NCBI GenBank assembly: GCA_022925895.1
Contig: JAKSYS010000228.1
Coordinates: 19,026-83,025, forward strand
Length of the DNA: 64,000 nucleotides
From: Fragilaria crotonensis
Lineage: Eukaryota > Bacillariophyta > Fragilariophyceae > Fragilariales > Fragilariaceae
Reading direction: 5' to 3'
Program-made: the position numbers and the translations under genes
Notes under the pieces: generated by a model
The model's database searches: none
The model's input: the letters and a program-made list of their open reading frames with translations, nothing else
What the model was told of the DNA's origin: nothing
Shown here: piece by piece, positions 17,631 to 57,072 of the stretch
How the letters are laid out: each line of letters begins with the position of its first letter
Position numbering within the stretch: the stretch's first letter is position 1

Positions 17631-20600
17631 TCAAAATTCATCTACGGATCCATCAACCGCTGTTGCCAAACAGGCTTCGCCAACACATTCTGCTGCACCT
17701 TTGACGACATCCACGAGCGCTTCCGCAATAGTTCCGTTCGTGCTATTCGTAATGTTGGTGCCATTCAAACCAAGCTCCTCGAACCGACCCTCTTGAAGCA
17801 TCAGACCTTCCCATGTCTGATCGTTTCCGAGAAAGGAGTACATGAGAAACCCCATGACAAGGATAGTGCGCGAGAGACCAAAAACGTCCTTGAGAGTAGT
17901 CCCTTCCACACTCGCAAAGAGAATCTTCGGACAGAAGATGAATTTAAGGACTCGGTCGAGTATAAAGGTGGCACAGACATCAATCACAAGCAAGGTGAGA
18001 ACATAGTCTCTGAACTTGTCGTCGGGAAACGGTACCAACTGGAAGTACTTGTTCAGACCAGGAGCAGACTCGGTTGCAAACATAAATGTTAAGATAAAAG
18101 TACCCAACAAACTCCACAACAGAGGGCGATTCTCCGTAAGTCCAGTCATGAACGGTCTGCCTTGGAGGTTAACGACGAACACACACACTTGCTGCACGTT
18201 GCTCACGAGAAAGACAACTGTGTTGAGAATACCAGGTTTGAAGATTCCATCAAGGTCGGGTTCGTATCCAGGAGGAAGGTGCTGTTTTGCACTTTGTGTG
18301 GCAAGCATCATGACAGCCAAGTGAATCGAGAACTGCCCGAGAAGACTGATAAACAGGGCAGGATGAAAAATTGACGTCAGAGGTCGAACCTTGGACAACT
18401 TGTCCAGGGGTTTTGATCTGGAGACAGACATAAACGAAATGGATCCCAGCATTCCCATTGCTGTCATTTGTGTATCGCCATACTTAACGCCATCCAGGTA
18501 GAGCACCGACAAGGAGTATGAGCTGATGAGACAATTGAGAGCGAGGATCTGGTACATCTGAATACTTGATACCAGCGTACAGCGCCCCTGACGTACGATG
18601 TCCACACAACTACGAATGCTTGGCATTTTGCTGGTGAAGGGGGCAGCAACGCTCGCATCGCCAAGCTTGACCATCGGTAGTTCACCAGACTCCATGTCTT
18701 CGAATTGGCTTGCCATAGCGGCAGCGGATCCTTCCACAGTGCCGAATTGTCGCTGCTTGGCCTTAACATTGTTGGCTTCCTCCTGGTAGAATTCTTTCAT
18801 GGCCTTGAAGGTAGCCCATTGCTCACCTTGAGCCTCCAGCTCTGCGACACGAGCAAGCATCCTTCGTTGCTTCTCCGCCGTGTCTGCACGTGCCTTGGCC
18901 TGAAGCTCTGCTTTCGACATTTGGGCATCAGCCAGAGCTTTCTTCTGTTCATTGCGTTTTATGAAACTTTCACGAGCCTTGATCTCGTACAATTTGAGAA
19001 GATCTGCTTTCTCTGACAATTCAGGGTACTTGTCTGGATCAGCGCCCATCTGACGAATCTTGGCCTTGAGGAGCATCTTTGGGAGTGATCGCATGGCTTC
19101 AAGATGTTCCTCGCTGACAATGGCCATCACTTGGTTGTCCTTTTTCTCCTCTACCTTCTTCTTAACGACTTCCTCTCCTCTATCAACGTTCAGATCTCCA
19201 AATCCAGTGAGCAGGGCGACACCAACATCTGCTTGCTTGAGAGCGCCGACATCGTTTGCGCCATCACCGCACATCAAACAGAGTTTTCCGACAGAGTGAA
19301 GGCACTCAATTACAGTTTCCTTGGCATCAGGGGTCATTCGAGCGAACACCTTGAAGTACTCAAGTTGCGATCGAGTGCCCTCGTCATATTCAAATGCTGC
19401 AGCAAGTGACTTGCCGGTAGTGGCGAGGTCGTATTTCCTTGAGAGTTCAGGAATCTCGCTTGCTGAAAAATCTGCCACTTTTGATTCATCATCATAGCTC
19501 GCCCAGAACATGGAGCCGTTCTTCTGTTCTAGAATGAGAATCGGCTTGAACTGCAAAGCACTTTGTTTTGCAGCAGCTTTCAGTGACCGTTTCGATTCTA
19601 GTAACTTGCGGAGTTCCTCGTTCTTCTCCACTTCGAACAATTCCTCCTCGCCATCATCGCCCGCAATCGGCTCGCAAATACGAACCTCCTTGGCAACATG
19701 AATCGCCGTGAGGATGGCATCGCCAGTAACCATTGCAATACTCATACCACCTTCCTTCAGTCGTTTAAGCACATTCGCGGTATCCTTGCGGACACGGCAG
19801 GTAAATGCGATGAATCCTGCAAAGGTGAGTTTTTGTTCACATGCGGCACGACTGTCCTTCGCTGCATCGACGTCACTGTTGCTGTTTAGCGGCTTGCAAG
19901 CGAGTGCAATAACACGATATCCCTCCTTGGCAAGGTACTTGGCTTTTTCATCGTAGCCGGTTGGCTTATTTGTCAACATATTCCCAATAGCCTCGGGAGA
20001 TCCCTTGGCGACAGCGAAGGCCTTGCGCGAGGACGACCGTACAACGCAACTCATGCACTGTAATTTCGAACTAAAATGGTGCCGAGTTAGAATCTCGAGC
20101 TCGTCGATCGCGCCGCTTCCCTTGATGTCAATGGACACTCCTCCTTTCTTCTTCTCAGTCGCTACCATGGGCACTACATTTCCGCTGGTGGGGGATAATG
20201 TCCAGCGCAGCGACTTCAATGATGCGCTTTCCAATGGATCACCGGTTGTCTCGTCATCAATAAAAACCAAAGAATGACACCCTGCCAGGACGAGGGCCGC
20301 TTCCCCGCCAAGTTTGAACATAGGGGTCAACAGCGAATCGTCTGCGCTGCCTTTCTTCTGGAGATTGGCTGGTTCGCACACTCCGACAGCGACAAGCTCA
20401 TCCGTCGTCAGCGTACCTGTCTTGTCAAACAAACAGGAGTTCAATTTGCCAGCAATGGGGACTTTGAACGGCTCAGTGCAGAAAATACCCATCTTCATCA
20501 GCGTCATCAACGAGTTGTTTACTGCCAGCGCCATTTGCATCGGAAGCTCGGGAGGAATGACTGATGTAACGATCATGATGCAATGCAAAAGTAGTTCATA

Positions 20601-22082
20601 CTTGCTGCGCTTATCGTTTTTCATGCCATGATGCAGAACGTACGACGAACTTGCAACAGCGAAGAAAAACAGAAGGAGCAACAAAAGTCCCGTTTCCCTT
20701 TCATGACCCTTAACCTTTTCTTGAGATCCTTCAATCATACGAACGAGCTTCCCTTGCGCTGAAGAGAAGCCCGTGCGTAGACAAAAGGCAAGGGCTCCGC
20801 CGTCTGGGGGAGACGGAATGGATGAGTAACGATCGACTTCCGAGGTCGCCTTGCACTGCAGCATTTTGGTCCCGGCGTACATAATATGAGATTTGTGGGC
20901 TGTCTTCATTGCGAGCACATCGCCCTCAACTAATTCCACAAGCCCCTCTTTCATCTGTGGTACAGACTCTCCAGTCAAGCTTGCTTCGTTAACGACCGTA
21001 CTACCTCTCAAAAGAAGAAGATCTGCCGGCACCACGTCGCCCCCTTCATCTTCAATCATTCCGCGCTTATTACCATCACTTTTAGCATAATGCGGTTTGA
21101 TTCTGGTCAAGGACATTAAATCACCAGGTAACAAATCTGTCGACTCAATTTGCACCCATCTCCGGACACGATGCACCCACACAGGTCGGATTTTATTTCC
21201 CATGCCCCGGAGGGCCTGTAACGATTTGAGTCTCGAAAAGACAACTGTCGCTTCGAACGTGAACACCATAAACAACGTGAATGCAGAATACTGCCAGTAG
21301 TCATCGAGCATCCAGAGAATGATGCAAAATAGTTGGAAAACAGTAAAAGGGCCGAGGAGTTGTTTCTTGTACATTTCACCAAAGGTAGGCTGTTTGATTT
21401 CAAAGGCATTAGGACCATAACGAAGCTTTGTTAAAAGGATTTGAGCGTCGTCTTTAAAGCCCTTCCACGAATCCCAAAACGGCAGCGGGATGTCAGTCCG
21501 ACAACGAATCTTGGTCCAACTATGTTCTTCCATATCCAACACATAGCGACGACGATGATACTCGAACGTTATACCCAAGATAGGAAAATAGACAAGGGGC
21601 ACCAGGACGTGGGGGCCCTTGGCAGGAATAACACGGGCGTGAGTTGGCAAGGCATTCGGAATGTCCGAAATTGAATGATCAACTTCTTTTCCTTCCTTTT
21701 GGTGTTCTTCTGCGTCAAGGTTGAGTTCCAACATGTCATCTGGCAGAGTGATGTTTTCCGCCTTTACTTCTTGATAGTTAATCCATGTATGAAAGGCCAC
21801 CGACCAGTGCTGCAAAAGCAACACCAACGCATGAAGCGTAACCAATATGCCTAACAACAACGTTGGAAAGAAGGACGTTGCATATCGACTAGGCACACGC
21901 ATGTGCTTAGGCAGGGAATCCAGAACATTGCGTTCCTTCTCACGTTTCTTGCGAGCAGCGTGTTCTTCCAAATCCATATCCATCCAGTCGAAAAAGCCCA
22001 TCTTATTCGCCGGGCGATCAGGATCATTGATGTCGCCAAGAGAGTGTTCCAGTTCGGCTCTCATTTTTGTCTGACCTTCCAT
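17631..22082 (-). CDS. SPF1: P5A-type ATPase (ATP13A1/SPF1 family), ER helix dislocase
   Basis: A single exon of 1483 aa from ATG 22082 (MEGQTKMRAELEH; GTC-ATG-G context; ATG 22091 is an alternative). The P5A signature PPELPMQMALAVNNSL lies at ~507, the phosphorylated aspartate in DKTGTLTTDE at ~553 and the hinge GDGANDVGALK at ~940. Residues ~972-1150 form a long charged, coiled-coil-rich insertion between the P domain and the last membrane helices; P5A pumps have an arm-like extension here, but this one is long. P5A ATPases sit in the ER and extract mistargeted mitochondrial tail-anchored or wrongly oriented helices. The family is usually ~1150-1250 aa; the surplus is the insertion plus N- and C-terminal extensions. 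Catalytic motifs are intact. Confidence 0.92.
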   Translation of the reverse strand: MEGQTKMRAELEHSLGDINDPDRPANKMGFFDWMDMDLEEHAARKKREKERNVLDSLPKHMRVPSRYATSFFPTLLLGILVTLHALVLLLQHWSVAFHTWINYQEVKAENITLPDDMLELNLDAEEHQKEGKEVDHSISDIPNALPTHARVIPAKGPHVLVPLVYFPILGITFEYHRRRYVLDMEEHSWTKIRCRTDIPLPFWDSWKGFKDDAQILLTKLRYGPNAFEIKQPTFGEMYKKQLLGPFTVFQLFCIILWMLDDYWQYSAFTLFMVFTFEATVVFSRLKSLQALRGMGNKIRPVWVHRVRRWVQIESTDLLPGDLMSLTRIKPHYAKSDGNKRGMIEDEGGDVVPADLLLLRGSTVVNEASLTGESVPQMKEGLVELVEGDVLAMKTAHKSHIMYAGTKMLQCKATSEVDRYSSIPSPPDGGALAFCLRTGFSSAQGKLVRMIEGSQEKVKGHERETGLLLLLLFFFAVASSSYVLHHGMKNDKRSKYELLLHCIMIVTSVIPPELPMQMALAVNNSLMTLMKMGIFCTEPFKVPIAGKLNSCLFDKTGTLTTDELVAVGVCEPANLQKKGSADDSLLTPMFKLGGEAALVLAGCHSLVFIDDETTGDPLESASLKSLRWTLSPTSGNVVPMVATEKKKGGVSIDIKGSGAIDELEILTRHHFSSKLQCMSCVVRSSSRKAFAVAKGSPEAIGNMLTNKPTGYDEKAKYLAKEGYRVIALACKPLNSNSDVDAAKDSRAACEQKLTFAGFIAFTCRVRKDTANVLKRLKEGGMSIAMVTGDAILTAIHVAKEVRICEPIAGDDGEEELFEVEKNEELRKLLESKRSLKAAAKQSALQFKPILILEQKNGSMFWASYDDESKVADFSASEIPELSRKYDLATTGKSLAAAFEYDEGTRSQLEYFKVFARMTPDAKETVIECLHSVGKLCLMCGDGANDVGALKQADVGVALLTGFGDLNVDRGEEVVKKKVEEKKDNQVMAIVSEEHLEAMRSLPKMLLKAKIRQMGADPDKYPELSEKADLLKLYEIKARESFIKRNEQKKALADAQMSKAELQAKARADTAEKQRRMLARVAELEAQGEQWATFKAMKEFYQEEANNVKAKQRQFGTVEGSAAAMASQFEDMESGELPMVKLGDASVAAPFTSKMPSIRSCVDIVRQGRCTLVSSIQMYQILALNCLISSYSLSVLYLDGVKYGDTQMTAMGMLGSISFMSVSRSKPLDKLSKVRPLTSIFHPALFISLLGQFSIHLAVMMLATQSAKQHLPPGYEPDLDGIFKPGILNTVVFLVSNVQQVCVFVVNLQGRPFMTGLTENRPLLWSLLGTFILTFMFATESAPGLNKYFQLVPFPDDKFRDYVLTLLVIDVCATFILDRVLKFIFCPKILFASVEGTTLKDVFGLSRTILVMGFLMYSFLGNDQTWEGLMLQEGRFEELGLNGTNITNSTNGTIAEALVDVVKGAAECVGEACLATAVDGSVDEF

Positions 22083-23731
22083 GACTATCATGCAACATAC
22101 CGGAAGATATGAGCAAGGGCAGAGAGAACGAAAGCAGAGAGATGCAGGGTGAGAACCTTCTATGTCATAAGAAGTTGGCAATGCACTTGATCATATATCC
22201 TTTATCGATTCTTATCCGAGGTACAGATTTTCGGTATTCACCAATGACAATTTGCGTATTTACGAACCTTGAAATCCTTCTCGATCCGCTTTTTCGAGAA
22301 ATAATTGATAAGGCTGCCCGATTGTCGAAATGACATAGATCACTTGATAGACGTAGCATAACAAAAAGACAACATGATAAAGGCGGAACCGTCTTTTGCC
22401 AATCCCAGCTGCTAGCTTGGCTTTGTACAGATGCACCCGGTGGATGCGTTTGCTGTCGCACTCCATGGTAAAATTGATCACTCTAGTAGCACAAGGCGAA
22501 AGGCGAGGAAAATGAGTTTTACGGAGGCGAAAGGAACCTGCCTGAGCTGTATGACATGTGCATTTATCTGCAAGTGTCATGGACAGACGAATAATTTCGA
22601 AGCTCGAAGTTCCGAGATTTTGGAGAGACACTCTACCGTACGTAGTACTACTATATAGTATCGTACATTGTACATTACTGGAGTATTCAATAATGCTCGT
22701 ACTTCGAAATACTTCGGAGCAGTGCATGACATTTGATATGAAAACGATACCCGCAGCCGCAGCCGGCCGATTTTCCCCAGCCTCTGTTGGCCGCAGCCGG
22801 CCGTACGCCACTCAGTGTGGGCCGGCCGTACCCGTGCGCACACCAACAGTCCATACCCGTACTCGGCCCGCATTCGAAGTATGCCTGCCCGTAGCCGGCC
22901 GCCATCGCACTGTGCATGACCGTACCTGGCCGTTGACCGTACTGTCCGACACAGTGCACAGTACACCTACCACCGGTAGTGCAAGTGTAGTACAGTACAT
23001 AGTACATAGTACAGTACAGTACTCCTTGCGGTGCTACCAATGGTTAGTACTATCATTCAACAGACCTTGAGCAAACGTTTACGCCCATCAGCCCATCGCC
23101 ATACAGTCGCGTAGGTGAGTACAGATATGATGTTTGATTTGTGTACATGTAGTATGTAGTAGGGGTACATATAAGTGCCTTCTACAGTACCTTCAACTAC
23201 CGGTAGTAGTATGTCATATGCACATTGAACAGACAGCTGACAGTTGTAATACGTCCTACGTAAGATGTCAGTGTAAAGATATCAGATATCAACACGAGTT
23301 TAAGTTGTGAGGTGACACGTCGAATTTGGAATTCGCAACTGGTAGCAAAATCGTATCGTGCTCTTCATGCGGATCCAAATCATCATCAATCATCTCAACT
23401 TTTGCTCGTCGAGTCAAGAAAGTCACTCGATCGGTTTAGAAGTTGCGGCGATACATGTACAACGTACACCGTGTACTGTAACTGTACTCGGTGTACTAAT
23501 CCGGAGTCCGAGCAAAAGCCTGCTACAAACGGTCACATACCACATACCTTCCCTGCTGTTACGTTTGCCTTGAGAACAAAATACGAAACCAAATGAAGCT
23601 ACAATTTTTGGAACTTGGAACATGAAGCGCAGCATGGATTGGAAGAGGGTTGAAAAGGAGAAATACTTTCAAAAAGGAGCTCTTTCCGAGGAGCTAGTTT
23701 CTGCAGGTACATCTACCGTACTATGTAGAAG
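22083..23731. other. Intergenic, repeat-rich and GTAC-rich
   Basis: Contains the GC-rich CGGCCG repeat (22718-22935). It is followed by stretches dominated by GTAC, AGTAC and ACCGGTAGT words (about 22936-23260). ORFs here are short and overlap in several frames; none is convincing. Confidence 0.5.
22718..22935. repeat. GC-rich CGGCCG dispersed repeat, copy A
   Basis: Dense GCCGGCC/CGGCCG palindromic words in otherwise moderate-GC DNA. Read on the minus strand it matches the block at 32.4-32.5 kb: CGGCCGGCCCAC, then GGCCGGCTGCGGCCAAC, then ATGTCATGCACTGCT. The two copies are therefore in inverted orientation on either side of the hAT gene and the satellite array. Confidence 0.7.
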
Positions 23732-25906
23732 TTAAAGGTCAAGATTTGAACGCATGAAGAGCAGGATGTCGAGGGTGGAAGCTTTCAAGCCATTGCGTTT
23801 TGCCGTCAGTGTGTTGCCTGCATCTGAAAAGTTACACTCAGATTTGGAGCTGGAGGCCGGAATACACAGTATTGATCTTGCGACAAGTGCCAGTGAGGGA
23901 AAGCTCGCGCTATTGGTTGACCACCAAGCCAGCAATCGTCCCGGTGCACTCTCAAGATCCACCTTGACAGCTTTGCCTAGCTTAAGGGCAAAGTACTCTG
24001 ACAGTTCTCGAGAAGCTCTGAGTGTGGTGTCGATCTGAGGAGGAGAATGGTCTTCATCCTCATCCTCGTCTGATGAGCTAGCTAAAGTTGTTGCCGTCGA
24101 TGAAGTTCGGATGGCAAGCTTGGGGCGTTTGAGAGGACGGGATGGTCGTCGCAAAGAACTTGTCGGGAATTTCTCCTTCTCCGCAGGATCCTTTATAAAT
24201 GCAGCAAAGATCTTGGTCAATCGCATGAGCTCAGCCTTGGCTTCCTCAATATCACTCTTTCGCACTCCCAATAGATGTAGCCTGGACTTTTGTCGAGGGT
24301 CAAGCATTGCGGCAATGACATGGTGTCTGCAGATAGACCATTTGCTTTTGATCTGGTTTTGAAGGAGAACCTTGATTGAAATGACATCCTCTGAATCTGG
24401 TTGAATTGTCTCGGTGACATTTCCATTGGAATCCTTTATCTCAATGGCAACCGTTACAGCTTCACAATGCTGTAACAATCGATTCCGCCAGAATGGAACA
24501 AGATGAATAGTAGGTGTTTTGAAGCATTCCAATGCCAATGTTGCTGATTTGAAAAGGCTTAGCAATCGGACAATCTCCACCAACAGTTGAAAATCAACAA
24601 CATCAATCTTCTTCTCTCTTCTTGCACCTTTCTGGAGCAAAAGCTTTCGACATTCTTGGAACTGTATTCGTATAGAGTCGAGCATTGTAAGTAGCCCATA
24701 CCAGCGGGTTGCAATCTCCTGCTTAAGCTTAGGGGCAAGCATACTGTTCAAGCCTGACTTCTTGCAATAGGCAACTAGCTCTTTGCAATGTGTGATCATC
24801 TCGAAGACTTCAGAAGCTCTGTCCTGAAATTCATAAAATGGCGCAGATTTCTTTCCATCAATTGTCATGGTTTTCTTGGCCAAAACTGTGTTTATCACAG
24901 TTCCAATCTTATGATCCGAGCAAGGAACCCACACATACTGGCTTGGCAGGCCATCGCCGGAGTGGTTGTTGGATGCAGAGTCTGTAACAACAATTAGTTG
25001 CTCGTCTGAGGCCTTCCCTGTGACACCACTGGTTTCAAATGAGCGATATGGTTCAACAACCAAGTTGAACTCGTTAAGAATCGCTGCACCAGTATGGCTA
25101 ACATTTGGGAATGCATTTACCTGAAGGGTGCGGTCATGAAGACACCACAAATCATCAATGAAGTGGATTGTGACCGACAAGAAGGACTGCTGATGATTAT
25201 CATCAGTCCAAATGTCCAGTGTGAATGCTGCCCAAAGACCGCACTTGAAATGGCTTTGGATGATGGACTTAAGAATGTCTCTTGTCAATGCACATCTCGT
25301 TGTCAATGATCTCTTGACAGTGACTTGATCGGGCAGCAGATCTTCAACTCGCATTGGATTCTTTGAGGATACTCCAATGTCAAGTACATTCTGCAGAAGT
25401 GAGCGAAATCCCTTTCCAGAGACAATCGAGAATGGGCGGATGTCCAATGCACACATGTCCCCTAATGATCTTGAGATTAGTTGTTTCTGTCCACCATTTG
25501 GCTGAACAGTTGCCTTCGCAAAATTTATCATGCTATGAGAACCGCCAGGTGCAATATCCAAGACACGACACTTATGCTTGTTTAAAGCTGATGTGCCCGT
25601 TTGAGAACTGTACACATACAGTGTCTCACACTCATGGCACGCAACAAAGGTTGATTTCCTTTGTGCTGTTGTACTTGTTGCGGATGTATCATCCCCAACA
25701 CATTGAATGAAAACAACTGGCTTGTTGTTTTCAGTAACACACACTGGACCGAACCTTTTCCAGAGTGGTAGAGACGAAGGCTTGGTGGTCTTGTTGTACT
25801 GCAGTATTCGAAATTGCTGATCCGATTGACTCAGAGATGTTGCAATTAACTGTTTAAACTCCGACAACGATTGCCCTGTCAATTCCTGGTGCACAATATG
25901 AGACAT
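23732..25906 (-). CDS. hAT-superfamily transposase
   Basis: A single open frame of 724 aa from ATG 25906 (MSHIVHQELTGQ). Residues ~49-113 form a BED-like zinc finger (W49, C90, C93, H111, C113). The RNase H-like core has the hAT first-Asp motif TLDIWTDDN and the second-Asp motif VVTDSASNNHSG. The C-terminal dimerisation region is typical: LLAWWSTNSASFPSLALVARSILCIPASSSKSECNFS, with EC in place of the usual ER, then KRNGL and LFMRSNLDL. An Asp/Glu run (SSDEDEDEDHS) lies before it. The frame is intact, so the copy may be young or domesticated. I found no convincing terminal inverted repeats or 8-bp target duplication nearby, so the element's borders are unknown. Confidence 0.88.
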   Translation of the reverse strand: MSHIVHQELTGQSLSEFKQLIATSLSQSDQQFRILQYNKTTKPSSLPLWKRFGPVCVTENNKPVVFIQCVGDDTSATSTTAQRKSTFVACHECETLYVYSSQTGTSALNKHKCRVLDIAPGGSHSMINFAKATVQPNGGQKQLISRSLGDMCALDIRPFSIVSGKGFRSLLQNVLDIGVSSKNPMRVEDLLPDQVTVKRSLTTRCALTRDILKSIIQSHFKCGLWAAFTLDIWTDDNHQQSFLSVTIHFIDDLWCLHDRTLQVNAFPNVSHTGAAILNEFNLVVEPYRSFETSGVTGKASDEQLIVVTDSASNNHSGDGLPSQYVWVPCSDHKIGTVINTVLAKKTMTIDGKKSAPFYEFQDRASEVFEMITHCKELVAYCKKSGLNSMLAPKLKQEIATRWYGLLTMLDSIRIQFQECRKLLLQKGARREKKIDVVDFQLLVEIVRLLSLFKSATLALECFKTPTIHLVPFWRNRLLQHCEAVTVAIEIKDSNGNVTETIQPDSEDVISIKVLLQNQIKSKWSICRHHVIAAMLDPRQKSRLHLLGVRKSDIEEAKAELMRLTKIFAAFIKDPAEKEKFPTSSLRRPSRPLKRPKLAIRTSSTATTLASSSDEDEDEDHSPPQIDTTLRASRELSEYFALKLGKAVKVDLESAPGRLLAWWSTNSASFPSLALVARSILCIPASSSKSECNFSDAGNTLTAKRNGLKASTLDILLFMRSNLDL

Positions 25907-26945
25907 TGAAAGCAATAAAAGAAAAAAGAAAAGGATCGCTTTGTGGCAATAGTCAACAAGAACCAACACTATGATACTACTAGAGAGCTGAGTGTCGGGG
26001 CATACGTCACCTTTACTACAGGATTTTATGATTTTTTGGATATCTTCAACTTGCAGCAACGCCCAATAGGAATATTAGGAGATTGTTTGACTTCATATTT
26101 CATTAATATTGGCATGAGAAATATGCATATATTTGGAATGTGTTGATGACGCATGTTACCACGCTACCTGTTACCATATTTATGAACACAAGTTCCAGTA
26201 GAACGACAACATTAATGAGAGGTAATTGCAGTATTTTGTCAATCACTGCTGGACACTGGACAAGCAGATATCCTTGTAGTACAGTATAGAAGAGCATTAA
26301 CGTTACTAAAGTAACATTATCATCGATGATCCCTTACTTCAAATATTGAGGCCATACATCAAAAATACTAGTACTCTGAAAACAGCAGTATATTCACATG
26401 TTATTCCTACTGTTTTGAATGTTATTTTAGATTCTTTGGTAACACTGTGGGTACTCATAGTTGTTTAATTCCTCACGACTGGAGTTGCAACTCGGACAAA
26501 ACCTTGCAAAGATGCAGTGGCAGTGGCTGTGGCTGTGGCAATGGCAGCGGTAGCAGCAGCGGGTACAGAGGCAACAGAGAAACCAAAGGCAGATGCCAGG
26601 AAAAGGAAGGCAAGTACAAAATTGCTGCTGGGGGTACTATACAAAAGAAACGTGCTGTAAAGAAAAACAGAAAAGAAACAGGAGAAGAGGAAAATTTGAT
26701 TGAAGTGGCACAAGAGGCAGCTGCTGCAAAGAAAGGGCAATCACAGAAACATGTCACGGCTATGGATGCATATGTATAATTGGTGCTTAAAACACGCTGT
26801 TTTAAAACAGCTGGATAACAAAACTTCTTTCACGCAATTGTAAAAAGTGAATAATTGATTAGCGATAAGGGTTAAGGGGGTTGCAAGATGCAACAGTTTG
26901 AACTTACAAACTTCACTTGTCATGGTTTATGAAGGCTGTTTTGAG
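25907..26945. other. Intergenic between transposase and satellite
   Basis: AT-rich sequence with a low-complexity GGCAGTGGCTGTGG-type stretch at about 26515-26575. A 110-codon ORF (26447-26779) covers this; it is Gly/Ser then Lys-rich, recognises no family and may be a by-product of simple sequence. It may include the 5' part of the hAT element. Confidence 0.5.
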
Positions 26946-29900
26946 TAAGTCTGCATGATGAAGACCCATTGAGCAGTTGTCACTCTTGCCCTTGTCAGAG
27001 ATATTGATTCAACTCCAAGGTGATGTAAAGTGGCAGTTCCTTGGCCCCAGTTTGAAGCCTAAGGAATCCAATTCATAGGAAAATGTTCTGTCATAGCATC
27101 ATTGTCATGTATCAGACAACAAGACACTCAGGCATTGGTATCACTGCAGGACAAACATTGGTTGTGCAGCAGTCATTCCGGTCCTTGTCACAATTGGCAA
27201 TTTTGTCCCATGGTAAAACAAATTGGCAGTTGTCCCCAGTTTGAAGCACAAGGAATCACATCCAATGTAAAATGGCCTATGATACAATCATTGTCATGCA
27301 TCTGACAAGACACACAGGTATTTGTAAGTCTGCATGATGAAGACCCATTGAGCAGTTGTCACTCTTGTCCTTGTCAGAGATATTGATTCAACTCCAAGGT
27401 GATGTAAAGTGGCAGTTCCTTGTCCCCAGTTTGAAGCCTAAGGATTCACATTCATTAGATAATGTTCAATCATAACATCATTGTCATGCATCAGACAAGA
27501 CACTCAGGCATTGGTATCATTGCAGGAGAAACATTGGTTGTGCAGCTGTCATTCCTGTCCTTGACACTATTGGCAATATCGTCCCATGGTAAAACAAATC
27601 AGGAGTTGTCCCCATTTTGAAGCAAAAGGAATCACATCCAATGTAAAATGCCCAGTGATACAATCATTGTCATGCATCTGATAAGACACACAGGTATTTG
27701 TAAGTCTGCATGATGAAGACCCATTGAGCAGTTGTCACTCTTGTCCTTGTCAGAGATTTTGATTCAACTCCAATGTGATGCAAAGTGGCAGTTCCTTGTC
27801 CCCAGTTTGAAGCCTAAGGATTCACATTCATTAGATAATGTTCTGTCATAACATCATTGTCATGCATCAGACAAGACACTCAGGCATTGGTATCACTGCA
27901 GGACAAACATTGGTTGAGCAGCAGTCATTCCTGTCCTTGACACAATTGGCAATTTTGTCCCATGGTAAAACAAATCGGCGGTTGTCCCCAGTTTGAAGCA
28001 CAAGGAATCACATCCAATGTAAAATGGCCTATGATACAATCATTGTCATGCATCTGACAAGACACACAGGTATTTGTAAGTCTGCATGATGAAGACCCAT
28101 TGAGCAGTTGTCACTCTTGTCCTTGTCAGAGATTTTGATTCAACTCCAAGGTGATGCAAGTGGCAGTTCCTTGTCCCCAGTTTGAAGCCTAAGGAATCAC
28201 ATTCATTGGAAAATGTTCTGTCATAACATCAGTGTCATGCATCAGACAAGACACTCAGGAATTGGTATCACTGCATGACAAACATTGGTTGTGCAGCAGT
28301 CATTCCTGTCCTTGTCACAATTGGCAATTTCGTCCCATGGTAAAACAAATCGGCAGTTGTCCCCAGTTTGAAGCACAAGGAATCACATCCAATGTAAAAT
28401 GGCCTATGATACAATCATTGTCATGCATCTGACAAGACACACAGGTATTTGTAAGTCTGCATGATGAAGACCCATTGAGCAGTCGTCACTCTTGTCCTTG
28501 TCAGAGATTTTGATTCAACTCCAAGGTGATGCAAGTGGCAGTTCCTTGTCCCCAGTTTGAAGCCTAAGGAATCACATTCATTGGAAAATGTTCTGTCATA
28601 ACATCAGTGTCATGCATCAGACAAGACACTCAGGAATTGGTATCACTGCATGACAAACATTGGTTGTGCAGCAGTCATTCCTGTCCTTGTCACAATTGGC
28701 AATTTCGTCCCATGGTAAAACAAATCGGCAGTTGTCCCCAGTTTGAAGCACAAGGAATCACATCCAATGTAAAATGGCCTATGATACAATCATTGTCATG
28801 CATCTGACAAGACACACTGGTATTTGTAAGTCTTCATGATGAAGACCCATTGAGCAGTCGTCACTCTTGTCCTTCTCAGAGATTTTGATTCAACTCCAAG
28901 GTGATGCAAAGTGGCAGTTCCTTGTCCCCAGTTTGAAGCCTAAGGAATCACATTCATTAGATGATGTTCTGTCATAGCATCATTGTCATGTATCAGACAA
29001 GACACTCAGGCATTGGTATCACTGCAGGAGAAACATTGGTTGTGCAGCTGTCATTCCTGTCCTTGACACAATTGGCAATATCGTCCCATTGTAAAACAAA
29101 TCAGGAGTTGTCCCCAGTTTGAAACATAAGGAATCACATCCAATGTAAAATGCCCAGTGATACAATCATTGTCATGCATCTGATAAGACACACAGGTATT
29201 TGTAAGTCTGCATGATGAAGACCCATTGAGCAGTTGTCACTCTTGTCCTTCTCAGAGAGTTTGATTCAACTCAAGGTGATGCAAGTGGCAGTTCCTTGTC
29301 CCCATTTTGAAGCCTAAGGATTCACATTCATTAGATAATGTTCTGCCATAGCATCATTGTCATGTATCAGACAAGACACTCAGGCATTGGTATCACTGCA
29401 GGACAAACATTGGTTGTGCAGCAGTCATTCCTGTCCTTGACACAATTGGCAATTTTGTCCCATGGTAAAACAAATCAGGAGTTGTCCCCAGTTTGATGCA
29501 CAAGGAATCACATCCAATGTAAAATGCCCAATGATACAATCATTGTCATGCATCTGACAAGACACACTGGTATTTGTAAGTCTGCATGATGAAGACCCAT
29601 TGAGCAGTTGTCACTTTTGTCCTTCTCAGAGATTTTGATTCAACTCCAAGGTGATGCAAGTGGCAGTTCCTTGTCCCCAGTTTGAAGCCTAAGGAATCAC
29701 ATTCATTGGAAAATGTTCAATCATAACATCATTGTCATGCATCAGACAAGACACTCAGGCATTGGTATCATTGCAGGAGAAACATTGGTTGTGCAGCTGT
29801 CATTCCTGTCCTTGACACAATTGGCAATATCGTCCCATTGTAAAACAAATCAGGAGTTGTCCCCAGTTTGAAACATAAGGAATCACATCCAATGTAAAAT

Positions 29901-31885
29901 GCCCAGTGATACAATCATTGTCATGCATCTGATAAGACACACAGGTATTTGTAAGTCTGCATGATGAAGACCCATTGAGCAGTTGTCACTCTTGTCCTTC
30001 TCAGAGAGTTTGATTCAACTCCAAGGTGATGCAAGTGGCAGTTCCTTGTCCCCATTTTGAAGCCTAAGGATTCACATTCATTAGATGATGTTCTGCCATA
30101 GCATCATTGTCATGTATCAGACAAGACACTCAGGCATTGGTATCACTGCAGGACAAACATTGGTTGTGCAGCAGTCATTCCTGTCCTTGACACAATTGGC
30201 AATTTTGTCCCATGGTAAAACAAATCAGGAGTTGTCCCCAGTTTGATGCACAAGGAATCACATCCAATGTAAAATGCCCAATGATACAATCATTGTCATG
30301 CATCTGACAAGACACACTGGTATTTGTAAGTCTGCATGATGAAGACCCATTGAGCAGTTGTCACTTTTGTCCTTCTCAGAGATTTTGATTCAACTCCAAG
30401 GTGATGCAAGTGGCAGTTCCTTGTCCCCAGTTTGAAGCCTAAGGAATCACATTCATTGGAAAATGTTCAATCATAACATCATTGTCATGCATCAGACAAG
30501 ACACTCAGGCATTGGTATCATTGCAGGAGAAACATTGGTTGTGCAGCTGTCATTCCTGTCCTTGACACAATTGGCAATATCGTCCCATTGTAAAACAAAT
30601 CAGGAGTTGTCCCCAGTTTGAAACATAAGGAATCACATCCAATGTAAAATGCCCAGTGATACATCATTGTCATGCATCTGATAAGACACACAGGTATTTG
30701 TAAGTCTGCATGATGAAGACCCATTGAGCAGTTGTCACTCTTGTCCTTCTCAGAGAGTTTGATTCAACTCCAAGGTGATGCAAGTGGCAGTTCCTTGTCC
30801 CCATTTTGAAGCCTAAGGATTCACATTCATTAGATGATGTTCTGCCATAGCATCATTGTCATGTATCAGACAAGACACTCAGGCATTGGTATCACTGCAG
30901 GACAAACATTGGTTGTGCAGCAGTCATTCCTGTCCTTGACACAATTGGCAATTTTGTCCCATGGTAAAACAAATCAGGAGTTGTCCCCAGTTTGATGCAC
31001 AAGGAATCACATCCAATGTAAAATGGCCTATGATACAATCATTGTCATGCATCTGACAAGACACACAGGTATTTGTAAGTCTGCATGATGAAGACCCATT
31101 GAGCATTTGTCACTCTTGTCCTTGTCAGAGATTTTGATTCAACTCCAAGGTGATGCAAGTGGCAGTTCCTTGTCCCCAGTTTGAAGCCTAAGGATTCACA
31201 TTCATTCAATAATGTTCTGCCATAGCATCATTGTCATGTATCAGACAAGACACTCAGGCATTGGTATCACTGCAGGACAAACATTGGTTGAGCAGCAGTC
31301 ATTCCGGTCCTTGACACAATTGGCAATTTTGTCCTATTGTAAAACAAATCGGCAGTTGTCCCCAGTTTGAAGCACAAGGAATCACATCCAATGTAAAATG
31401 GCCTATGATACAATCATTGTCATGCATCTGACAGGACACACAGGTATTTGTAAGTCTGCATGATGAAGACCCATTGAGCAGTTGTCACTCTTGTCCTTGT
31501 CAGAGACTTGCTTTGATTCAACTCCAAGGTGATGCAAGTGGCAGTTCCTTGTCCCCAGTTTGAAGCCTAAGGATTCACATTCATTAGATAAGATTTTGTC
31601 ATAGCATCATTGTCATGTATCAGACAAGACACTCAGGCATTAGTATCACTGCAGGACAAACATTGGTTGTGCAGCTGTCATTCCTCCTGTCCTTGTCACA
31701 ATCTGCAATTTTGTCCCATGGTAAAACAAATCGGCAGTTGTCCCCAGTTTGAAGCACAAGGAATCACATTCAATGTAAAATGCCCTATTATTCAATCATT
31801 GCCATGCATCTGACAAGACACACAGGTATTTGTAAGTCTGCATGATGAAGACCCATTGAGCAGTTGTCACTCTTGTCCTTGTTGT
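26946..31885. repeat. Satellite array: ~13 copies of a ~375-bp dimeric unit
   Basis: The landmark AAGTCTGCATGATGAAGACC recurs near 26946, 27326, 27703, 28078, 28453, 28828 (one change), 29205, 29578, 29954, 30328, 30702, 31077, 31453 and 31835, a period of about 375 bp. Each unit consists of two related halves of about 187-190 bp; both halves carry CCCCAGTTTGAAGC and ATCATTGTCATGCATC. Some neighbouring units are nearly identical (28078-28453 and 28453-28828), and a ~750-bp block starting near 29700 repeats almost exactly from 30450. The array is therefore hierarchical and still being homogenised. It has no coding content; the 66-68 codon ORFs recur with the unit. Confidence 0.95.
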
Positions 31886-32892
31886 CACAATACTGATATT
31901 GTTTCACGGAAAATCACTTTGCTTTATTGCTGTTACTGATACAAGGGTATAAGACCCTGTCTGAACCATTTCTTTCACAACCGCTTAACACTCCTTTTAC
32001 AAGCAACAGAGAAACAAGCATGTATTCAAATGCAGCTCAAAGCATCCATCATCCTTAATGGAGGACCACAATTGTCTTTGTTCATTGTGGCTGGTCCTCT
32101 TTAGAGGCACTGATGTTCAATTATACTTTTTGCATGAATACAATTACAACATTTTATCACTACCAATGCTCTTTGGACCGCAGCCGACCCGTACTGACAA
32201 GGAACGAACCAAAGCCGACCCGGACCGACAACGAAAAGGAGCGGACCGCAGCCGACCGCAACCGTGACAAGTAACAAATGTGCTGGCCGTCAGCCGTGAT
32301 GGGCCGACACGTGATTGGGAAGGACCGCAACCGGCCGTTACACTGAGAAAAAAGTTCCGTTCCGGCCGTAACCGGCCGGGACCTAAATACGAGGACCGCA
32401 GCCGCCCGAAATCACGGCCGGCCCACGGTTTCCGGCCGGCTGCGGCCAACGGGCCCCGATGTCATGCACTGCTTCGGAGTCGAGAGTCGAGAGCCCATGT
32501 TTGTCCCTGTAATCGAGCCGATCGAGCATCCTATGCATATAAATAAATAATTCTTCGGTTGCAGCTTGTACAGTACATTGGACATGCATATGAATGCTGC
32601 ACACCCCACACAGCACACCCTGCATTCAGTAGATCGGAGTCTGGTACAGTACAGCGTACCGTAGACTGTACAGTAGATGTCCTGTGCTGAATCTCATCGA
32701 CGAATTCTCTCATAAACTTGATATGCATACTACGCTAGTACGTACTACGAAACAATTCATAAAATTCTGTTCTCTGTAGAACCTGGTACAAGGGCTGCAG
32801 CATGATCTGATGAGACGTACGGTACTGTACCTGGTACTCCAGACTCCAGAATACGCACGGCACTGCACACTGCACACTCTGCAGTCTGCAAA
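31886..32892. other. Intergenic between satellite and F-box gene
   Basis: Unique AT-rich sequence (31886-32160), the GC-rich repeat copy B, then GTAC-rich DNA (32560-32880) up to the F-box gene. No supported gene. Confidence 0.5.
32170..32545. repeat. GC-rich CGGCCG dispersed repeat, copy B
   Basis: Repeats of GGACCGCAGCCGACC and CGGCCGTAACCGGCC type, ending with GGCCGGCTGCGGCCAAC, ATGTCATGCACTGCT and then TAATCGAGCCGATCGAGC. It is inverted relative to copy A at 22.7-22.9 kb. It shares its terminal CCCT(G)TAATCGAGCCGATCGAGC segment with copy C at 36.8 kb. Confidence 0.7.
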
Positions 32893-34145
32893 ATGCACAC
32901 AAACCTCGAAACGAAAAACCAACCCACCACCTCATCGTTTCAATTCTCAACCATGAGCAACCATGAGAACATCCGGTCGGCTTCGATACCAATCGAAACC
33001 AAGGAAGAAGCAGTTTGGTCGAAAGATGATCATGATTGGGCGCTCACATACAACATCTGGCACATGCTGCCATGGATGGAGCGTAAAGATTTGGCTTCCA
33101 CATACGGATGCAAGACAATTGGCGAATTCGAAGAATATATGAGCATACGACGTGCATTGGAAGCGGAGAAAAAGGCGTATCCCAATGAAGAAGCATACAT
33201 AGAGGGAATGGTAAGCAAGAATGAACAACTCGAAGATGTGAAACCTGCAGCTCTGGCTGTTCAAGTTGACGAAGACGAAATTGTGGATGAAGTGCCAACG
33301 GCGACCGAATCTTCTGATGAACCAAATCCCGACGACACGCTCTCCCAAGACGAGTTGTTAAGAGTCGGTGGATATATACTCAGTCTTCCCGAAGAACTTG
33401 GACACGCCGTCTTTTCCTTCCTCTCCGTAGATTCCTTTGCCACGTTGGCGCTTGTGAGTCCACATTGGAAACACTTGTGCCGTACCGAAGCTGTCTACAG
33501 AAAACTATGCGAGCGTGTCTACTTGCATCAGTCGAAACGGCGCGTCTTAAATGTGACACGATTTGGAAGTTATCGCAACATGCTGTACTTGAGACCACGT
33601 GTTCGAACGGGGTTATACGTCATGAGATATGCTCAAGTACGTCGTCATTCTTTTGATCGTTTTTTTGTGCCACCTTTCTTGTCGCTCTCACACAAGGTGC
33701 ACTCTAGGTCAAGCCCATCCAACGCGATATGTGGTGCGAAATTCCTGTCGGTGCCATCCTTGAAACTGTGTACTACCGATACATCTATTTTCTAGAAGAC
33801 GGGCGCGTTTTATATGCACTCACGAATGCCGGACCTCACGACATGATCCGACGCCTCCTCAAGGTCCTACGTCACGGCGAACCAGACCGTGCGGCTGTGT
33901 GGGGTACCTTTCAAATTAAGGGAAAGCATATGACTGTATTGGCGAAACAGGAGTGGCAGCATGTGAAATTGGAACTCTCCATTTTGCCCGAATCGCATTG
34001 GGGAAGGTTTGGTGCATTGACCTTCGATCGCCACTTGACTAGTGCGTCCGGTAATTTTGATGAAAATGCCTGGCCGAATGACATTCACGTCTTTCAAGTT
34101 CCATCTGAAGTGTTTCGGTATGTCCACGATCGGCGGTTGAGCTGA
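32893..34145 (+). CDS. F-box protein, FBXO9-like
   Basis: Two exons, 32893-33636 and 33708-34145, separated by a 71-bp phase-0 intron (GTACGT...CTCTAG), giving 393 aa. ATG 32953 (MSNHENIRS) is in a better context and could be the true start. The F-box is ILSLPEELGHAVFSFLSVDS at ~161-200, followed by the FBXO9-type region: FGSYRNMLYLRPRVRTGLYV, then across the junction VKPIQRDMW, YRYIYFLEDGRVLYALT and a beta-rich C-terminus. F-box proteins link SKP1 of an SCF ubiquitin ligase to substrates; FBXO9 in animals targets TEL2/TTI1. The N-terminal TPR-like segment of animal FBXO9 is not evident; an acidic linker is there instead. Confidence 0.82.
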
Positions 34146-56542: not shown

Positions 56543-57072
56543 GTACCTGGAAGGTCCGGCAATACACGCTTAGTCGTGAATCAAGGTCGAATTCACGCTG
56601 GCCGGAGGCGAAAATCATTTCCGTTCTGTGTCTGGCTGGTGCTAAACTGGTTATGCCAGCGTCATCGTCGTTTTGCTGACACTTGCTGACGAAAAGACAG
56701 ATCTGCTGACATCCGCTGACAAAAAACGAATTTGCTGACGTCTGCTGACGAAATTCGAATCTGCTGACATTTTCTGACATATGATGACGAAAACGAGTTT
56801 TTTCCAGCACAAAAGCTACGGTGATGCTGACATCTTCTGACGTTTGCTGACGAGAATCAAGTTTGCTGACATTTGCTGACGAAAAGCAAATCTGCTGACA
56901 TTTGCTGACGAAAAAGAAATCTGCTGACATTTGCTGAACCTTGCCAGCTCGAATGATACGACAAAGATCCTAACAAGCTCTAATCACGCCGGCCGGTCAT
57001 TAGCTGGCGCGCACATCCTTAAGGTACATCTTGTTAACTGCGAAACGTGCTTGGGCCGGACCTTCCTGGTAC
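56543..57072. mobile_element. CTGAC element, copy 2, with terminal inverted repeats
   Basis: A left end GTACCTGGAAGGTCCGGC (56543-56560) and a right end GCCGGACCTTCCTGGTAC (57055-57072) are inverted repeats of 18 bp with one mismatch. Between them lies a CTGAC-rich tandem array and no ORF with coding character. The right end matches GGCCGGACCTTCC at 479-491, the end of copy 1. It is therefore a non-autonomous, MITE-like element of ~530 bp. Target-site duplication is not clear. Confidence 0.65.
56670..56938. repeat. ~29-bp tandem repeats with paired TGCTGAC motifs
   Basis: About eight diverged copies of a unit of the form TTTGCTGACGAAAAGCAAATC with a second TGCTGACAT. TGCTGAC occurs roughly every 12-17 bases. 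The motif shares CTGAC with the array at 46-346, although the unit length and spacing differ. Confidence 0.85.

Follow-up and report, generated by a model that had tools for sequence, protein, structure and literature searches.

A higher-order satellite array carried inside a hAT transposon of the diatom Fragilaria crotonensis

A satellite array in a 64,000-nucleotide stretch of the Fragilaria crotonensis genome (positions 19,026 to 83,025 of contig JAKSYS010000228.1, assembly GCA_022925895.1; hereafter the window) is carried inside a hAT transposon, enclosed by terminal inverted repeats (TIRs) and a target-site duplication (TSD). Very probably, the array belongs to a transposon-borne satellite that resides in hAT elements, has lost its CpGs by decay and was moved around by transposition and nesting. 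The array and the element that surrounds it comprise the following features:

22720–32471: outer hAT element of 9752 bp, with TIRs matching at 13/14 positions and an exact 8-bp TSD
22712–22719: left TSD (CTTCGGAG), an exact 8-bp match to 32472–32479
32472–32479: right TSD (CTTCGGAG), an exact 8-bp match to the left copy
22720–22733, plus strand: left TIR (CAGTGCATGACATT), from the TIR/TSD scan
32458–32471, minus strand: right TIR, reading CAGTGCATGACATC on the minus strand
23732–26074, minus strand: hAT transposase open frame of 780 amino acids (aa) from stop to stop, with matches to Pfam and to Hermes structures
26945–31882, plus strand: satellite array of ~26 monomers (25.8 via Tandem Repeats Finder, TRF), i.e., 13.1 dimers of 375 bp
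31883–32471: right arm of the outer element

Scanning the surroundings of the array for inverted repeats accompanied by an 8-bp direct repeat yielded a single solution (i.e., 22720–32471), with a 14-bp TIR of the form CAGTGCATGACAT(T/C). The transposase frame, of which the array lies 5′, contained the Pfam domains Dimer_Tnp_hAT (PF05699, 9.8e-17) and DBD_Tnp_Hermes (PF10683, 5.7e-7) and matched Hermes transposase structures (6.3e-35); the stretches in which we place the first Asp and the Glu of the DDE residues were aligned with Hermes, and the second Asp fell outside the aligned stretches. The outer element thus combines the 8-bp TSD, the short TIRs and the transposase with a C-terminal dimerisation region that mark the hAT superfamily, and it shares its transposase domains and 8-bp duplications with Hermes and other hAT transposons. 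We know of no 4.9-kb internal satellite in Hermes, such as is present in the window element. A Helitron or Helentron with central repeats was ruled out, as both a TSD and TIRs were present.

The left 241 and right 252 bases of the element each gave at least 42 matches (window included), most of which, among the matches listed, began or stopped exactly at the proposed termini. Among those same matches, left and right ends were paired on 36 other contigs in short copies of ~0.4–0.63 kb, which independently supports the ends of the outer element. Separately, these ends (22720–22960 and 32220–32471) form a family of miniature inverted-repeat transposable elements (MITEs), for which the window element is a possible transposase source.

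The internal structure of the array largely bears out a preliminary description of this DNA, which had proposed ~187-bp monomers in ~375-bp dimers with local ~750-bp blocks. TRF identified a period of 375 bp over 26945–31882 (13.1 copies, 94% matches, score 8532), correcting the edges to 26945 and 31882, and a period of 186 bp over 27041–31882 (25.8 copies, 68% matches). The monomer length therefore stood as a mean period but not as a uniform spacing, since a monomer profile placed 25 full monomers in the array with starts alternating between 186 and 188–193 bp. Similarly, a 20-base landmark said to occur 14 times was exact in only 13 places, while its 31-base extension had 14 copies with at most 4 substitutions (13 exact), spaced 374–382 bp apart. 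The two halves of each unit are indeed related: their consensus sequences were 0.686 identical (gaps included), and their global alignment scored 94 versus a maximum of –61 over 500 letter shuffles. The motifs said to be common to both halves, CCCCAGTTTGAAGC and ATCATTGTCATGCATC, each had 16 exact occurrences. Mean monomer identity amounted to 0.691 between neighbours and 0.946 between monomers of the same phase. The 375-bp units were all mutually distinct (89.5–99.7% identical), with the unit pairs 4/5, 7/9, 8/10 and 9/11 being 99.2–99.7% identical. These near-identical units, together with the repeated 750-bp block and its small deletion, confirm the proposed monomer/dimer/block hierarchy and recent amplification:

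29576–30325, plus strand: 750-bp block, copy 1, with 746/750 bases identical to copy 2
30326–31074, plus strand: 750-bp block, copy 2, with 746 identities, 3 mismatches and 1 gap versus copy 1

No open frame spanned the array (frames of at least 60 aa inside it measured 60–81 aa), and no known RNA family was found in the window at gathering thresholds.

A genome-wide search for the monomer had been proposed in the preliminary description, and searches with three pieces of the array showed that at least 31 contigs carry related repeats (27, plus C696, plus C722, C598 and C2), contigs not being equal to chromosomes. The 28 arrays examined, i.e., those of the window, C696 and 26 other loci, were located on 28 contigs, measured 0.6–4.9 kb each and totalled ~68 kb, or 0.11% of the 62.1-Mb assembly; none reached a contig end. 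Of the 28, 15 were bounded by inverted repeats together with a direct repeat of 8 bp. A strict scan was passed by 12 loci (the window, L011–L015, L017, L019, L020, L022, L024 and L032), C696 passed when more flank was included (8753 bp, TIR 14/14, TSD CCGGACAG), and L009 and L010, with imperfect TIRs, passed by inspection. The same strict scan accepted 0/200 random spans in the window, 0/135 locally shuffled flanks and 1/104 swapped flanks, in which the exchanged pairs could belong to one family. Looser scans gave weaker pairs that were not counted, namely 11/16 in L030 and L034, 12/16 and 11/14 in C696 besides its 14/14 pair, 9/12 in L026, and a second internal pair in L032.

The array-bearing hAT elements measured 3.5–9.8 kb and carried seven types of terminal repeat with duplications (CAGTGCATGACAT, TATGGATGC, TATGGATGTGTAT, CAGGGTTTGCTAAT, CAGGGTTTGACAGT, CAGAGTCATGCACG and CAGAGACGGGAATT). 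The two types starting with TATGG resemble each other, as do the two CAGGG types, and some of the seven are perhaps related to one another. A single dimer type for all families was rejected: the A and B halves of the window matched the halves of L009 and L010 as types, and elsewhere both halves were nearer to B or undecided. L019 and L020, with 9 and 12 full monomers, respectively, had both flanks 96.5–99.1% identical and may represent a single insertion found on two contigs, i.e., possible alleles that differ in array length. Apart from this, the right arms of L013, L014 and L015 matched mutually in both orientations over ~1.6 kb, so that these TATGG elements seem to hold a long internal inverted repeat.

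Within the window element, the array most likely arrived as part of a second element inserted 5′ of the transposase, because its left flank corresponds to the terminus of another hAT-like element:

26761–26944, plus strand: 5′ terminus of a nested hAT-like element (TATGGATGC family), 82–84% identical to the left termini of L009 and L010

This match of 184 bp started at the first base of the L009 element and 7 bases before the L010 terminus. Both the L009 and L010 elements have their own 8-bp duplications (GTCTGGAG and ATCACATC) and imperfect inverted repeats, and their monomers, at 89–91% identity, are the closest to those of the window among the 27 other arrays.

Comparable arrangements were found at other loci. 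In 15 loci, a CAGGGTTTGCTAATCACG-family end (no more than 2 errors) was situated less than 1.6 kb from the array; a 16th locus, L026, showed 3 errors. In L011–L015 this end followed AATGCGGG and in L023 it followed AATGCAGG, in each case at a point ~0.14 kb inward of a TATGG left terminus. Both CAGGGTTTGCTAATCACG-family ends of L012 carried AATGCGGG and adjoined the TATGG left terminus, with the right end of the TATGG element not found; for the CAGGG element, no right end was located in L011, L013, L014 or L015. L017 contained a CAGGGTTTGCTAATCACG-family element within a CAGGGTTTGACAGT element, with duplications matching at 7/8 (inner) and 8/8 (outer) positions. Since CAGGGTTTGCTAATCACG-family ends thus sit within TATGG or CAGGGTTTGACAGT elements, nested insertion explains several of the host changes, though not all of these cases are complete.

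The association between arrays and hAT genes was reflected in the Dimer_Tnp_hAT matches listed, of which 7/31 lay less than 3.5 kb from an array (versus ~0.13 expected from lengths), with four of these seven belonging to one family. To compare the history of transposase and array, 15 pairs were formed among six elements with transposase sequence. Eleven pairs gave no alignment or one with E >0.05, while their arrays were 74–91% identical (best match); five of these eleven involve L022, a 178-aa remnant, and so weigh less. The other four pairs had transposases that were 70%, 33%, 21% and 21% identical and arrays that were 72–81% identical. L026 and L029 had no Pfam match and were called hAT because they resemble L033 (21% at 5e-13, or weaker). 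As arrays remained this similar where transposases do not align, and as few related transposase loci show an array among the matches listed, the array spreads in a manner at least partly independent of the transposase gene.

All arrays shared a pronounced scarcity of CpG. The observed/expected (o/e) ratio of CpG was 0.07 in the window array (42% GC) and 0.03–0.24 in the other 27 arrays (pooled 0.09, alongside pooled ratios of 1.77 for TpG, 1.80 for CpA and 1.15 for GpC), compared with 0.98 in the window outside the element, where 209 overlapping 1-kb windows had a mean of 0.98 (standard deviation 0.13) and a minimum of 0.50. Within 100 bp of the arrays the ratio was 0.43 on the left and 0.25 on the right, rising to 0.90 and 0.84, respectively, at 2–3.5 kb. 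The transposase frames of five elements gave 0.59–0.75, some right arms 0.30–0.53 and the two outer arms of the window element ~1.0, so that CpG was lower in the arrays than in any other measured part of these elements. Because all 28 arrays are nearly CpG-free and the depletion fades with distance, their composition suggests long-term cytosine methylation centred on the array, and the genome carries C5 DNA-methyltransferase domains (13 matches). The genome also contains 61 matches to the light-harvesting family PF00504, which support an algal source.

Taken as a mechanism, the transposon-borne satellite would work as follows. Short arrays would lengthen and shorten within each element via unequal exchange or replication slippage, giving rise to dimers and 750-bp blocks, and would spread through cut-and-paste transposition of the host element. 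An array would switch host when an array-bearing element inserts into another hAT element and the composite then moves. Within the element, the array would be the main target of cytosine methylation, its CpGs having decayed to TpG and CpA.

Several observations weigh against this mechanism. No complete TIR/TSD pair was found in 13 of the 28 loci (L016, L018, L021, L023, L025–L031, L033 and L034), which have one recognisable end, share a flank with a further array locus or have a hAT-like transposase in the vicinity, L028 having only a short shared stretch. The related repeats on C722, C598 and C2 were left out of the 28 arrays examined, so that free arrays are possible. On the 12 contigs with window-related transposases (E <1e-5), arrays occurred at that place only in the window and C696 among the matches listed. 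As for nesting in the window, no right end of the nested element was recognised: no match to known ends rose above shuffles and no exact duplication partner was found, the search returning one 1-mismatch partner at 32411 without a visible terminal repeat beside it. With regard to methylation, some right arms were CpG-poor too (L013, 0.30; C696, 0.36), as was a Copia-like open reading frame (0.34), and new CpGs, per opportunity, still arose about half as often as new GpCs (46/1139 vs. 63/879 distinct events). The CpG scarcity may therefore be partly inherited from a CpG-free founder monomer.

The preliminary description had likened the array to the higher-order satellites of centromeres or heterochromatin. 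Its nucleosome-sized monomers, dimers and 750-bp blocks, together with a CpG-poor, heterochromatin-like composition, would suit a centromeric or pericentromeric satellite invaded by transposons. However, the window holds a single 4.9-kb array, situated within a transposon between two gene frames:

17631–22190, minus strand: P-type ATPase frame, outside the element on the left
32806–33795, plus strand: F-box frame, outside the element on the right

Moreover, its relatives are short as assembled and dispersed, terminal repeats and duplications enclose more than half of them, and the GC content of the array exceeds the ~28–32% reported for diatom episome-maintenance sequences. A centromeric origin is thus very unlikely, and of the earlier comparison only a heterochromatin-like state persists, indirectly, through the near-absence of CpG and the methyltransferase domains. 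Collapsed or expanded repeat copies in the assembly are the least probable explanation: near-identical 375- and 750-bp blocks do leave the exact copy number uncertain, but the units can be told apart individually, and many contigs carry bounded arrays of this family.

Alternatively, the array might be a portable cis-acting module kept by selection in hAT elements. It could, for example, act as a centre of methylation or silencing, or provide binding sites for proteins close to the promoter of the transposase. It is common to elements whose transposases do not align, in five elements (those of the window, C696, L033, L029 and L026) it lies 5′ of the transposase gene, and CpG depletion is centred on it. 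Conservation along the monomer was also uneven (window-variance permutation p-value of 0.006, best stretch TGTCCCCAGTTT), which may be taken as weak evidence of constraint, but a test on the longest conserved run was not significant (p-value of 0.15). In four elements of the CAGGG family (L018, L021, L022 and L024), however, the array is found at the 3′ end of what remains of a hAT gene, and its orientation relative to the gene is reversed between L026 and L029; since position and orientation vary in this way, a fixed promoter role is disfavoured. Most related transposase loci (among the matches listed) moreover lack the array. The monomer was also considered as a transposase-binding site, as the window TIR contains TGCATGACA, a motif with 20 occurrences in the window array, and TGCATGAC is also present in the L032 TIR; this candidate was rejected when the C696 TIR proved to lack the motif despite an array and a related transposase. 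On balance, a selected module seems unlikely. Similarly doubtful is the idea of the 187-bp satellite as a portable module for silencing (or for evading it). In this view, barely related hAT families would share a methylation centre exchanged by nested insertion, which would control the element's chromatin state from its place next to the transposase gene, the CpG desert being its trace. We favour a passenger satellite that expands in its elements and becomes methylated.

Transposon-borne satellites are already known as a kind; new here are the hAT carriers, the sharing across families and the CpG desert. Arrays internal to transposons have been described as seeding or dispersing satellites in oyster Helentrons (PMC7492417), Drosophila Tetris (PMC4079207) and Xenopus MITEs (PMC12628747). 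In the Pacific oyster, the non-autonomous Cg_HINE Helentrons likewise disperse short satellite-like arrays as central repeats of DNA transposons, with flanks and arrays combining modularly, whereas the present case involves hAT elements, 8-bp TSDs, inverted repeats and a transposase frame that is still intact, and a single array family is found with several types of terminal repeat. The foldback transposon Tetris and TIR-220 of Drosophila virilis similarly hold ~200-bp tandem repeats inside a DNA transposon, but those of Tetris are part of its terminal inverted repeats and gave rise to longer arrays beyond the element, while ours are internal, with no free arrays among the 28 examined (13 of which are without a complete element). 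The Xenopus satellites miDNA4 and Xstir also expanded as tandem repeats inside an inverted-repeat element; these, however, reside in MITEs (Tc1/mariner for miDNA4), in contrast to the 3.5–9.8-kb hAT elements with nesting described here. Of two reviews, PMC12628747 had no mention of the term hAT and the other had two, both in the reference list. Within the open-licence PMC literature, which most subscription papers fall outside, no paper was found that combines a hAT transposon, tandem repeats, an alga and a subterminal location, or higher-order satellite repeats with a transposon in a diatom, and a search on CpG depletion in diatoms yielded only an ant-genome paper.

A satellite family with higher-order structure would thus live and spread inside the hAT transposons of an alga, common to several families of them, and its TIRs, duplications and nesting give an order of events that makes for a readable case of satellite origin and movement. 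In addition, the CpG desert allows element arms and array to be compared within one insertion, so that what draws methylation to tandem repeats becomes testable in one organism.

Some further features of the window were noted. The outer element is situated between the two divergently oriented gene frames (22190–32806); if it were absent, only ~0.9 kb would separate their stop-to-stop ends. At 46–345, two arrays of 21-bp repeats (5.5 and 6.6 copies) are mutually inverted (91/105 aligned bases match) and foldback-like, with a CpG o/e ratio of 1.35, unlike the satellite. Two adjacent arrays of 29-bp repeats at 56674–56937 contain the motif TGCTGAC, which is also present in the repeats at 46–345.

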